Source: Mesorhizobium sp. ZC-5
Lineage (GTDB): Bacteria; Pseudomonadota; Alphaproteobacteria; Rhizobiales; Rhizobiaceae
Reading direction: 5' to 3'
DNA: 64,000 bases
Assembly (NCBI RefSeq): GCF_025753855.1
Contig: NZ_JAOWPT010000001.1
Coordinates: 62,001 to 126,000, forward strand
Position numbers and translations under genes: made by a program. This document shows positions 23,056 to 33,070 of the stretch, piece by piece (positions within the stretch are counted from its first letter, which is position 1; each line of letters starts with the position of its first letter). The notes beneath the pieces are model-generated. The model did no database searches and was not told the DNA's origin. It saw only the letters and a list, made by a program, of their open reading frames with translations.

Positions 23056-23070
23056 GAACATATCATGAAC
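23056..23070. promoter_or_regulatory. SOS box (LexA-binding site)
   Basis: GAAC-ATATCAT-GAAC is an exact copy of the alphaproteobacterial LexA consensus (GAAC-N7-GAAC, the complement of GTTC-N7-GTTC). It ends two bases before the start codon of the radical SAM gene and overlaps the likely promoter, with TTGATA at 23034-23039 as a -35 candidate. LexA binding here would silence the repair cassette until DNA damage. Confidence 0.8.
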
Positions 23071-23072
23071 AT

Positions 23073-24359
23073 ATGACACTCTCGACTCGCGAAAAACTGG
23101 CGATTCTTTCCGACGCCGCCAAATACGATGCTTCCTGCGCCTCATCCGGCGCCGCCAAACGTGATTCCTTGAAGAGTGGCGGCATCGGCTCGACCGAAGG
23201 CTCCGGCATCTGCCATTCGTACGCGCCCGATGGCCGCTGCATTTCGCTCCTGAAGATCCTGCTGACCAATTTCTGCATCTACGACTGCAGCTACTGCATC
23301 AACCGCTCTTCCTCGAACGTCCGCCGCGCCCGCTTCACCATCGACGAGGTGGTCCAGCTGACGCTGGACTTCTACCGCCGCAACTACATCGAAGGTCTTT
23401 TCCTCTCCTCCGGCGTCGTTCGTTCGCCGGATGAAACCATGACCGAGATGGTCGAGATCGCCCGCCGGCTCAGGATTGATGAAAAGTTCGGCGGCTACAT
23501 TCATCTGAAAACGATCCCCGAATGCGCGCAGGAACTGATCGAAAAGGCCGGGCTCTATGCCGACCGCCTGTCGATAAATGTCGAACTGCCGACCGATGAA
23601 GGCGTGAAGAGGCTGGCGCCGGAAAAGAAGCCCGAAACGATCCGGCTCTCGATGGCGAAACTCCGCTCGAAGATCGAGGAAAAGTCGGAACCCACGCTGA
23701 AGACGAAACGGCGCGAGCATTTCGCACCGGGCGGCCAGTCTACACAGATGATCGTCGGCGCCGACGCGACCCCGGACGCCGGCATTCTCGCCACCAGCGC
23801 CCGGCTCTATGGGAGCTACCATCTCCGCCGCGTTTATTATTCCGCCTTCAGTCCGATTCCGGATTCATCGTCGGCACTGCCGCTCAGGAAACCGCCGCTG
23901 ATGCGCGAACATCGGCTCTATCAGGCCGACTGGCTGATGCGCTTCTACGGCTTCGCGCAGCCGGAAATCCTGGCCGGAACGCCGGATGGCATGCTCGATC
24001 TTGACATCGACCCTAAGCTCGCCTGGGCACTGCGCAACCGCGGACAATTCCCGCTCGACGTCAACCGCGCGCCGCGGGAGGCGCTGTTGCGCGTGCCGGG
24101 CCTGGGCACCCGCGCGGTGACGCGCATCCTCGAAACCAGACGTTTTCGTCGCTTGCGGCTGGAAGATGTCGGGCGCCTCTCTGCCTCGATTTCCAAGGTA
24201 CGGCCATTCATTGTGGCGGAAGGCTGGTCGCCCGGCCACCTCACCGACCAGCACGGCCTGCGGCAGCGCCTTGCCCGCCTCCGAGGCAGCTTTCGCTGTT
24301 CTGATCATGCCGGCACAACAGCTCAACCTCGCCCACCACACCATTCTGCTTTCCGGTGA
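23073..24359 (+). CDS. Putative DNA modification/repair radical SAM protein (TIGR03916 family)
   Basis: 428 residues. The radical SAM cluster motif CIYDCSYC holds Cys68, Cys72 and Cys75. The N-terminus KLAILSDAAKYDASCASSG and the GYIHLKTIP and LSINVELP strands fit the TIGR03916 family. Near residue 340 a helix-hairpin-helix (RVPGLGTRAVTRIL) gives non-specific DNA contact. These proteins occur beside UdgX/TIGR03915 proteins, as here, and are believed to act on damaged DNA, but no reaction is established to my knowledge. No ribosome site is seen and the SOS box ends two bases upstream, so the mRNA may be nearly leaderless. It overlaps the next gene by 53 bases. Confidence 0.9.
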   Translation: MTLSTREKLAILSDAAKYDASCASSGAAKRDSLKSGGIGSTEGSGICHSYAPDGRCISLLKILLTNFCIYDCSYCINRSSSNVRRARFTIDEVVQLTLDFYRRNYIEGLFLSSGVVRSPDETMTEMVEIARRLRIDEKFGGYIHLKTIPECAQELIEKAGLYADRLSINVELPTDEGVKRLAPEKKPETIRLSMAKLRSKIEEKSEPTLKTKRREHFAPGGQSTQMIVGADATPDAGILATSARLYGSYHLRRVYYSAFSPIPDSSSALPLRKPPLMREHRLYQADWLMRFYGFAQPEILAGTPDGMLDLDIDPKLAWALRNRGQFPLDVNRAPREALLRVPGLGTRAVTRILETRRFRRLRLEDVGRLSASISKVRPFIVAEGWSPGHLTDQHGLRQRLARLRGSFRCSDHAGTTAQPRPPHHSAFR

Positions 24360-25815
24360 AACCGACTTCGAAGGCTGGCGCGATGCGGCCCGGCGCCTGG
24401 CGTTGTCTGGAATCGAGCCGGTGGACGTGAATTGGACTATTCGACCGGAGGCCGAGCGGCAGCCAGATCCCCCTCCTCCCTGTGGGGAGGAGTCAGGGAT
24501 GGGAGAACAAACTCGCCAGCCCCCCGGAAGCACGACCCTCCGTGTTCCACGCGATTTCATCGCGGCGGCCGAAACCGCCATCCTTCACTCCAATCCCGAG
24601 CGTTTCGCTTTTCTCTACCGGCTGCTGTGGCGGCTTCGTTCGGAACCGCATCTGCTGAAGATCGCCTCCGACCCCGACATCCGACGCCTCGAAGCGATGG
24701 GAAAATCGGTACGCCGCGACATCCACAAGATGCGCGCCTTCGTCCGCTTCCGGCAGATCGGCGACAGCCCGGACGAGCGTTACGTCGCCTGGTTCGAGCC
24801 GGACCACTACATCGTCGAGCGCAACGCACCGTTTTTCGTGCGCCGGTTCACCGGCATGCGCTGGGCGATCCTGACGCCCCATGCCTGCGCCGACTGGGAC
24901 GGCGAGCGTCTTGCCATTGGCCCCGGCGCCCGTAAGGACGACGCCCCGCTGGAAGATACTTCCGAGGCTCTGTGGCGCACCTATTACTGGAATATCTTCA
25001 ACCCGGCGCGGCTGAAGGTGAAGGCGATGCAGGCCGAAATGCCGAAGAAATACTGGCGGAACCTTCCGGAGGCTTCGCTCATTCCTGACCTGATCGCAGG
25101 CGCGGACGAGGCCGCCAAGGAGATGATTGCCAGGATGCCCAGCACGCCGGCGCCGCACCACGCCAAGATGCAGGCGAAACATTGGCCGGTGCCCAAGACG
25201 CCTCGTCAAGACGAAGACGGCGCAGACGCCAGATCGATCGCACAGGCCCGCAAGGCGGCCGAGCATTGCAGGCGCTGCCCCTTGTGGCGCGAGGCGACGC
25301 AGACCGTGTTTGGCGAGGGACCGGAAAGCGCGCGCATCGTCTTCGTCGGCGAGCAGCCGGGCGACCAGGAGGATATCGCCGGCAAGCCTTTCGTCGGCCC
25401 GGCGGGCAAGGTGTTCGACGACATTCTCGAGGAAGCCGACCTCGACCGAGCCATCACCTACGTCACCAACGCGGTGAAACACTTCAAGTTCGAGCCGCGC
25501 GGCAAGCGCCGCATCCACTCCAAGCCCAACGCCGGCGAAGTTCAGGCTTGCCGCTGGTGGCTCGACAAGGAGCTGTCGCTGATAAAGCCGGACCTTGTCG
25601 TCGCACTCGGCGCGACGGCGGCGCAGTCACTGCTCGGCAAGCCGGTTGCCATTACCAGGATGCGCGGCGAGGTCATCGAGCGGGACGATGGCTTACGCAT
25701 CTTCCTCACCATCCACCCCTCCTTCATCCTGCGCATCCGCGAACCGGAAGAGAAACAGGCCGAACGGGAGCGGTTTCTGAAAGACATCAAGGCGGTGAAA
25801 GCGCTGATGGCGTGA
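24307..25815 (+). CDS. udgX: Fusion of TIGR03915 putative DNA repair domain and UdgX uracil-DNA-binding protein
   Basis: 502 residues. Residues 1 to about 290 match the TIGR03915/DUF4130 domain (FRRFTGMRW-like VRRFTGMRWAI and MPKKYWRNLPE). The rest is a family 4-like uracil-DNA glycosylase with CRRCPL, GEQPGDQED near residue 348, and HPSFILR near residue 470. KRRIHSKP at residues 400-407 is the UdgX signature: the His (His404 here) forms a covalent bond with the abasic site after uracil removal. The cysteines that hold the Fe-S cluster are in the CRRCPLW region. A palindromic repeat adds a stretch near residue 57. Start ATG lies inside the end of the radical SAM gene, which indicates coupling. 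Confidence 0.92.
   Translation: MPAQQLNLAHHTILLSGETDFEGWRDAARRLALSGIEPVDVNWTIRPEAERQPDPPPPCGEESGMGEQTRQPPGSTTLRVPRDFIAAAETAILHSNPERFAFLYRLLWRLRSEPHLLKIASDPDIRRLEAMGKSVRRDIHKMRAFVRFRQIGDSPDERYVAWFEPDHYIVERNAPFFVRRFTGMRWAILTPHACADWDGERLAIGPGARKDDAPLEDTSEALWRTYYWNIFNPARLKVKAMQAEMPKKYWRNLPEASLIPDLIAGADEAAKEMIARMPSTPAPHHAKMQAKHWPVPKTPRQDEDGADARSIAQARKAAEHCRRCPLWREATQTVFGEGPESARIVFVGEQPGDQEDIAGKPFVGPAGKVFDDILEEADLDRAITYVTNAVKHFKFEPRGKRRIHSKPNAGEVQACRWWLDKELSLIKPDLVVALGATAAQSLLGKPVAITRMRGEVIERDDGLRIFLTIHPSFILRIREPEEKQAERERFLKDIKAVKALMA
24473..24492. repeat. Palindromic repeat inside the udgX coding sequence
   Basis: CTCCTCCC and GGGAGGAG, arms of 8 bp around TGTG, resemble the GC-rich palindromes found between genes in this window. 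Read in frame it gives a Pro-Pro-Pro-Pro-Cys-Gly-Glu-Glu segment that looks foreign to the domain around it. Confidence 0.5.
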
Positions 25816-32080: not shown

Positions 32081-33070
32081 TTACCGGCGCGCCGTGACGA
32101 GATCCGCCGCGCCCTTTTTGGCATTCGAGGCGTAAAGGGCAAGCGCGGTCATGATCTCCGCCGATGCAAGCGCGGCGATGACGGCCGGCCGCTTGTCCTT
32201 CACCTGATCGCCGCCTATCGGCGAGACGAGACGGGAAAATTCCGCTTCGCTGCCGCCGGCGTTCTTGACGAACCAGGTCTTGAACGTCGCCTTCTTTGTC
32301 TTTGAGCCGATCATGCCGACATAGGCGGCGTCGTTGCGTTTCAGCGCTTCGGCCACGATCAGGAAGTCGAGGGCGTGGTCGTGCGTCAGCACCACGATTG
32401 CTGTTCCGGCGGGCGCCTCGCGTATCATTTCTTCGGGCATCGGCGTCAGCTTCTTCTCAACCGCCTCTGGCATGCCTTCGAGTTCTTCCGACCGCGTTTC
32501 TATGACCACGACATGCACCGGCAGCAGCGCCATCGCCATCGCGAGCGCCTTGCCGACATGGCCGCCGCCAAACAGGTAGACATGAGGGAATTGCGCTTCG
32601 CTCTCTTCCGCGGCCCGCACAAGCTCCGCCGCCAGCGTGGCGTCCACCATGCGGATCAACACCTCCACGCGCCCACCGCAGCATTGGCCGATCTCCGGCC
32701 CGAGCGGCACGTCGAGCGTGGCCTGCGTATCCCTCCCCCTTGAGGGGAGGGTGGCCGCGAAGCGGCCGGGTGGGGTCGCTGCGGCAGCGCGCGGCGTGCT
32801 GACGGTTCCTTCTGAAGGTACCCCCTCTGGCTGCTTCGCAGCCATCTCCCCCTCAAGGGGGGAGAAAGTCGCCAGCATCTGCCTGGCCTTGTCGATTGCC
32901 ATGTATTCGAGCTGGCCGCCTCCGATCGTGCCGAATGTTGCCAACGGCGAGACCAGCATGAGGGCGCCCTTCTCGCGCGGCGTCGAGCCTTTGGTGCCCG
33001 CAACCTCGACCAGCGCCGTCGCAGCATTAGCAGCGAGAAAGTCCCTGAGGTTTTGCACGTCCGACATCAT
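32081..33070 (-). CDS. xdhC: Xanthine dehydrogenase accessory protein XdhC, with internal repeat-derived insert
   Basis: 329 residues. The N-terminal XdhC domain (ALVEVAGTKGSTPREKGALMLV) and the C-terminal NAD-binding-like domain (HVYLFGGGHVGKALAMAMA, then VLTHDHALDFLI) are both clear. XdhC binds molybdenum cofactor, aids its sulphuration and inserts it into xanthine dehydrogenase. Residues about 69-114 do not belong to the family: they begin after KARQMLATFS and end before TQATLDVPLGP, and are encoded by a palindromic repeat element that keeps the frame. Two ATG codons stand in a row at the start; either may be used. Last gene of the uraH-xdhABC operon. Confidence 0.9.
   Translation of the reverse strand: MMSDVQNLRDFLAANAATALVEVAGTKGSTPREKGALMLVSPLATFGTIGGGQLEYMAIDKARQMLATFSPLEGEMAAKQPEGVPSEGTVSTPRAAAATPPGRFAATLPSRGRDTQATLDVPLGPEIGQCCGGRVEVLIRMVDATLAAELVRAAEESEAQFPHVYLFGGGHVGKALAMAMALLPVHVVVIETRSEELEGMPEAVEKKLTPMPEEMIREAPAGTAIVVLTHDHALDFLIVAEALKRNDAAYVGMIGSKTKKATFKTWFVKNAGGSEAEFSRLVSPIGGDQVKDKRPAVIAALASAEIMTALALYASNAKKGAADLVTARR
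32728..32866. repeat. Composite palindromic repeat inserted in frame in xdhC
   Basis: Two hairpins bound the element: CCCTCCCC with GGGGAGGG (32731-32751) and a TCTCCCCCT hairpin with AGGGGGGAGA (32845-32865). Smaller ones lie inside (GGCCGCGAAGCGGCC and CTGCTTCGCAG). Such mosaics are normally intergenic in rhizobia. Here it supplies about 46 codons without a stop. Confidence 0.75.

Follow-up and report, generated by a model that had tools for sequence, protein, structure and literature searches.

The overlapping genes at positions 23073 to 25815 of the window (the 64,000-nucleotide stretch of DNA analyzed here, which derives from a 6.34 Mb genome) are best explained as a LexA-repressed DNA damage operon. 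In this interpretation, which we hold at a probability of about 55%, a radical SAM (rSAM) protein and a DUF4130 domain form the core repair pair. The UdgX domain would be an independent extension that is co-induced with this pair and shares no chemical intermediate with it. The operon itself is real, is under selection, and is known in kind, as a representative of the TIGR03916–TIGR03915/TIGR03914 family.

The sequence-only reading of this DNA described an rSAM gene followed by a TIGR03915–UdgX fusion gene with a 53-base overlap, preceded by a perfect GAAC-N7-GAAC site ending 2 bases before the start codon. This arrangement was recovered in full (Table 1): All three profiles score over their cut-offs, the overlap comprises positions 24307–24359, and the exact box stands where it had been placed. 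A glutamine synthetase-like ORF, identified by eye, is located upstream of the box, and the order at the locus is this ORF, GAACATATCATGAAC, 2 bases, and the ATG at 23073. The DUF4130 part also matches Pfam DUF4130 (133.9 bits; cut-off 27). The nearest relative in the named locus set described below is Mesorhizobium sp. SOD10, with 86% identity of the rSAM protein, although the closest records may have been omitted from that set.

Table 1. Features of the operon, in window coordinates
Feature	Position	Strand	Evidence or remark
LexA (SOS) box GAAC-N7-GAAC, GAACATATCATGAAC	23056..23070	+	2 bp 5′ of start codon; 28/28 order-level cassettes
TIGR03916 radical SAM protein, 428 aa	23073..24359	+	559.6 bits (cut-off 343.5); AlphaFold2 model
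C22, C47, C56 and H48, putative metal site or second cluster	23136..23240	+	Invariant in both alignments; metal predicted
CX3CX2C iron-sulfur cluster motif (C68, C72, C75)	23274..23297	+	Invariant in 19-row and 61-row alignments
Helix-hairpin-helix-like segment, residues 323–380	24039..24212	+	phmmer versus 2duy, E 0.0084
DUF4130–UdgX fusion, 502 aa	24307..25815	+	53 bp overlap with rSAM gene
TIGR03915/DUF4130 part, residues 18–256	24358..25074	+	211.1 bits (cut-off 112.25); model mean pLDDT 87.5
In-frame insert, variable DUF4130 loop, palindromic repeat at 24471–24490	24463..24537	+	Ends approximate
TIGR03914/UdgX part, residues 258–497	25078..25797	+	321.6 bits (cut-off 189.95); UdgX structures are best PDB matches
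UdgX motif A, GEQPG	25348..25362	+	Aligned to solved UdgX
UdgX R-loop KRRIH, residues 400–404 of second protein	25504..25518	+	Aligned with KRRIH of 6ajo

Taken alone, the box is weak evidence, and the claim of SOS control is carried by its position and conservation. Exact GAAC-N7-GAAC sequences occur four times in the 64-kb window versus 2.09 expected, and 14 of 100 shuffled windows hold at least four. The whole genome has 186 exact matches versus 127 for a reversed control pattern. Because a pattern this common is unconvincing by itself, orthologous loci were examined. An order-level sample of 150 genomes, including the window's own, contains 28 with a protein over the TIGR03916 cut-off. An exact box is present within −400 to +30 of the rSAM profile start in all 28 of these cassettes, the window's included. 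It lies within 60 bases in 25 of them, and in the other three (L036, L038, and L040) it has the other orientation and is located ∼100 bases upstream. Alternative spacers of N3–6 and N8–13 each occur in none or one of the 28 cassettes, and the 105,682 bases of order-level loci outside −400 to +30 contain no exact box. In the window's genome, an exact box, GAACACAACTGGAAC, precedes lexA; recA has a box with one mismatch and no exact one. Forward boxes stand in 124 distinct contexts, and in 56 of them the first in-frame start codon comes exactly 2 bases later, as in the window; this spacing suggests that the transcript could be leaderless.

In a phylum sample of 349 genomes, 70 were over the TIGR03916 cut-off, and 60 of these were fetched for analysis (eight of the rest were already in the order-level set, and G418 and G467 were left out). 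All 39 alphaproteobacterial loci of this sample have an exact GAAC/GTTC box within −150 to +30. Among the loci from other proteobacterial classes, 18 of 21 carry CTG[TG]-N8-[AC]CAG, 14 of them in the strict form CTGT-N8-ACAG, which we take to be the E. coli-type SOS operator. The remaining three comprise two with TCTCA-N5-TGAGA and one without any box. None of 360 control windows within rSAM genes matches any of the operator patterns. In the named set, a separate collection of 80 loci, 77 were assigned to Alphaproteobacteria by title (the titles of L236 and L247 are uninformative), and 75 of these 77 presumed alphaproteobacterial loci have the exact box; one of the other three loci has a CTG-type site, one a TCTCA-type site, and one neither. 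These counts are to be read with the caution that the order, phylum, and named sets may overlap and that related genomes are not independent. The letters of the operator change with the clade and its position stays, just as LexA control predicts. The SOS control proposed in the sequence-only reading, together with its expectation of the same gene order and box in relatives, is thus well supported by the operators conserved in 28 of 28 order-level and 39 of 39 alphaproteobacterial phylum-sample cassettes. With such an operator at the head of two overlapping genes, cleavage of LexA should release both.

A palindrome of the GTCTCA-N5-TGAGAC type is positioned just 5′ of the rSAM gene at L150, L151, and L261, where no GAAC or CTGT box is found; the L150 copy is one base off. 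The genomes of these loci contain eight exact sites of this type: two at the rSAM gene, three 5′ of a helicase-like ORF (L270–L272; Pfam DEAD was tested for L272), two beside a ribosomal-protein-like ORF (by eye), and one with no ORF near it. Another radical SAM ORF (L274) has a one-mismatch site. Perhaps this palindrome is a third damage operator.

The three protein parts do not travel together uniformly. In the order, TIGR03916 and TIGR03915 are over cut-off in the identical 28 of 150 genomes, and all 28 cassettes have UdgX fused to DUF4130 (in one, a stop occurs early). Genomes over cut-off for TIGR03914 number 36, namely those 28 and eight without an rSAM protein over cut-off. Among the eight, G050 has an rSAM remnant (30.9 bits), and G063 is barely over the TIGR03914 cut-off (191.8 bits), with motif A unreadable in frame. 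In the phylum sample, DUF4130 is present in all 60 fetched loci (∼3 kb downstream in L149 and L153). Of these loci, 42 show the UdgX part and 18 do not, including three (L148, L149, and L153) whose slices end too early to judge. When the 15 genomes with UdgX-less cassettes were searched whole, TIGR03914 was over cut-off in none, and both UdgX-bearing positive controls were over cut-off. Matches to the wider UDG family below cut-off are present in eight of the 15, two at 110–114 bits and six at 23–36 bits. An SOS-type box typical of the clade is found at 14 of the 15 UdgX-less cassettes (in loose form only at L170 and L182–L184), the exception being L125.

The named set includes 73 loci with all three parts, six with rSAM and DUF4130 only, and one with rSAM only; some of these seven incomplete loci are cut off by the end of their contig. 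The presence of UdgX changes at least seven times across a quick tree of 88 rSAM proteins, with 26 of its 85 inner branches open. Bacteroides ihuae, one of 14 control genomes, matched TIGR03916 and TIGR03915 and did not match TIGR03914. In plasmid records from Subdoligranulum (Bacillota) and Phocaeicola (Bacteroidota), a DUF4130-like ORF stands alone behind an rSAM gene (tblastn E 5.5e-6 and 1.9e-4). The UdgX-less cassettes, the repeated changes on the tree, and the rSAM–DUF4130 pairs of other phyla suggest that the conserved core is rSAM plus DUF4130, and that UdgX is an optional C-terminal extension with a history of several gains or losses.

UdgX can also persist without the cassette. At three loci of genus g3, in the window's family (L061, L062, and L063), the rSAM gene and most of DUF4130 are gone, with differing junctions, and the UdgX frame is intact with its KRRIH. 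The site is the same in each case, behind a glutamine-synthetase-like gene. L063 retains an exact box, GAACATACCATGAAC, and the ATATG that follows it; no site within one mismatch is present in the 500 bases 5′ of UdgX in L061 or L062. With other orphans set aside, the UdgX of L062 is closest to that of L185 (92%), and those of L061 and L063 are closest to that of L152 (90–91%); the cassette is complete in both L185 and L152. Because these closest full-cassette relatives differ, at least two independent losses of rSAM–DUF4130 are likely among the three loci. Between L061 and L063, the UdgX genes show a dN of 0.002 and a dS of 0.107, and the orphan protein is still selected, although the losses may lie before or after the split of L061 and L063. 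None of seven UdgX loci outside cassettes (L064–L070) has an exact box, and three (L064, L067, and L070) have one-mismatch patterns; L069 and L070 are second UdgX copies in cassette-bearing genomes. Since boxes occur at UdgX-less cassettes and no exact box occurs at these lone UdgX loci, SOS control goes with rSAM–DUF4130. A decayed cassette, L071, consists of an exact SOS box, an N-terminal rSAM remnant, and a C-terminal UdgX remnant, and a standalone UdgX (L066) is located at another place in its genome.

The rSAM protein has the CX3CX2C motif expected of TIGR03916 (C68, C72, and C75). Neither these cysteines nor C22, C47, C56, or H48 vary in the alignments of 19 and 61 rows. A second cluster or metal site might be held by C22, C47, and C56. 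The AlphaFold2 model (mean pLDDT 82.2) is a HydE/LipA/BioB-like barrel, with pLDDT under 50 at residues 22–31 and 40–55. Among the best 50 rows of each of two fold searches, structure matches are led by HydE, LipA, BioB, HydG, NosL, and ThiH; MiaB is also a neighbor, and no photoproduct lyase is listed. The helix-hairpin-helix motif that had been assigned to this protein was recovered as a weak match to the ComEA-related structure 2duy, so the label is kept here for a tentative segment. For DUF4130, a possible relationship to the DHH/DHHA1 superfamily was examined by comparing its profile with that of RecJ (hhalign), which gave a probability of 0.5%.

UdgX structures lead the PDB matches of the UdgX part (E 2e-55), with GEQPG pairing with GEQPG and KRRIH with KRRIH of 6ajo. 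In the part of PMC10359453 drawn on here, the R-loop His of M. smegmatis UdgX is the residue that bonds to DNA, roles are given to the Gln of motif A and to the Arg and His of the R-loop, and the physiological role of UdgX is described as largely unknown. Equivalents of the cross-linking residues Q53, R107, and H109 are present in all 28 order-level cassettes, one of which (L078) has a stop ahead of motif B. The KRRIH noted from sequence is thus correctly located, and covalent bonding by the window's protein is predicted from its residues. It shares both motifs with the M. smegmatis enzyme and differs from it in its fusion to DUF4130 and its SOS box; solved UdgX chains have ∼205–230 aa.

A CxxC pair and a later Cys (replaced by Tyr) are missing together from the UdgX of 11 of the 28 order-level cassettes (L076, L078, L083, L087, L089, L090, L092, L093, L094, L096, and L098) and are kept in 17. 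The UdgX locus L067 likewise is without the CxxC pair. The lost cysteines are presumably iron-sulfur ligands, and a cluster-free UdgX clade is possible.

We take TIGR03916 to be equivalent to COG4277. A two-gene UDG operon, COG1573–COG4277, with LexA-type motifs has been described in Bacteroidetes, and SOS regulation of such a UDG system has been reported in Verrucomicrobia and Alphaproteobacteria (both in the part of PMC8565304 used here). The operon studied here is similar in that two genes, for a uracil-glycosylase-family protein and a putative COG4277 protein, are SOS controlled, and differs in that its UDG is a DUF4130–UdgX fusion. Because LexA control of the UDG operon is reported there, the SOS cassette of the sequence-only reading was already in print in outline. 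The same part of PMC8565304 attributes the UDG to repair that follows error-prone polymerases, with no mention of DUF4130. It also places SplB-type photolyases (COG1533), which are likewise radical SAM proteins, in SOS regulons as a separate COG. As a representative of the TIGR03914, TIGR03915, and TIGR03916 families, with all three over cut-off in one operon, the gene pair of the window is a normal member with no difference seen. New in this analysis are the switch of operator between clades combined with the constancy of the box, the modularity of the cassette with a separable UdgX, the concerted loss of UdgX cysteines, and the three extra invariant rSAM cysteines.

The favored interpretation can be put as a sequence of events. 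Upon DNA damage, cleavage of LexA would release both overlapping genes. With its helix-hairpin-helix tail anchoring it to DNA and with DUF4130 assisting, the rSAM enzyme would act on a damaged base or cross-link, processing or reverting it by means of a 5′-deoxyadenosyl radical and perhaps of an auxiliary cluster bound by C22/C47/C56. UdgX would independently excise nearby uracil and covalently cap the abasic site, so that fewer strand breaks would arise until recombination resolves the lesion. The two activities would then have a common inducer and a common site of action, and no common chemical intermediate. Against this explanation, the universal presence of UdgX in the cassettes of the order and its fusion to DUF4130 argue for more than co-induction. 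Three of the 21 cassettes from non-alphaproteobacterial classes, which are without an E. coli-type box, also count against it.

Two observations favor the mechanism put forward in the sequence-only reading, by which UdgX covalently captures an abasic or uracil-derived intermediate and the rSAM enzyme reverses or processes the adduct: The parts are fused or adjacent and under shared control in every one of the 28 order-level cassettes, and the cross-linking residues are kept in 28 of 28. Separability of the parts speaks against it. Fifteen genomes have rSAM–DUF4130 and no UdgX over cut-off, eight of 36 UdgX genomes have no rSAM protein over cut-off, rSAM was lost in situ with UdgX intact at L061–L063, and no exact box accompanies the seven UdgX loci outside cassettes. 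We find this mechanism unsupported and give it little chance of being correct. The view that the box matches by chance and that the operon lies outside SOS control could draw on the four bare patterns in 64 kb versus 2.1 expected; given boxes in 28 of 28 and 39 of 39 cassettes, and CTGT-N8-ACAG-type sites in their place in the other proteobacterial classes, it can be practically dismissed.

Other alternatives concern the chemistry. The radical SAM fold would suit a direct reversal of a photoproduct or base cross-link by rSAM–DUF4130, in the manner of spore photoproduct lyase, with UdgX as an unrelated passenger. We consider this unlikely though worth keeping in mind, since HydE, LipA, and their like lead the fold matches, photoproduct lyases are missing from the 50 rows listed per search, and the three extra invariant cysteines suggest chemistry beyond a single cluster. 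Alternatively, the enzyme might modify DNA or nucleotides, for instance by inserting a group via an auxiliary cluster, with UdgX editing a base modification made under stress. The fold neighbors LipA, BioB, and MiaB and the invariance of C22/C47/H48/C56 favor this view; however, the second cluster is itself a prediction, UdgX is not over cut-off in the genomes of 15 cassettes, and the proposal seems quite improbable.

In a bolder reading, the rSAM–DUF4130 pair would be a DNA repair enzyme so far unrecognized, spread across phyla and equipped with two metal clusters; DUF4130 would serve to hold DNA, as a RecJ/Cdc45-like module without catalytic activity. Proteobacteria would repeatedly have acquired UdgX as a suicide cap by which uracils or abasic sites are marked for that enzyme's radical chemistry. 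We regard this as a speculative proposal with the odds well against it. If true, it would supply the physiological role still missing for UdgX, that of an SOS effector. Under the favored interpretation, in which UdgX is a dispensable appendage of the SOS-controlled rSAM–DUF4130 pair in Alphaproteobacteria, genomes that naturally lack one half or the other indicate the strains and single-gene deletions by which the two activities can be told apart, and attention shifts to the conserved, uncharacterized pair of rSAM and DUF4130.

Further variation was seen between or within the parts of several cassettes. A hemerythrin-like ORF is located between rSAM and DUF4130 in L243, L245, L251, L236, and L147 (Pfam Hemerythrin, 64.2 bits for L243; the other four are similar by eye), and perhaps serves in oxygen handling for the radical enzyme. 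In the Fulvimarina record L192, a cytidine-deaminase-family ORF occupies this place. Two Paracoccus fusions (L220 and L252) have GEAPG in place of GEQPG and retain the R-loop His. The palindromic repeat inside the DUF4130 insert of the window, CCCTCCTCCCTGTGGGGAGG, has partial copies at two other places in the genome (87% over ∼38 bases) and a two-mismatch match at window position 32731.
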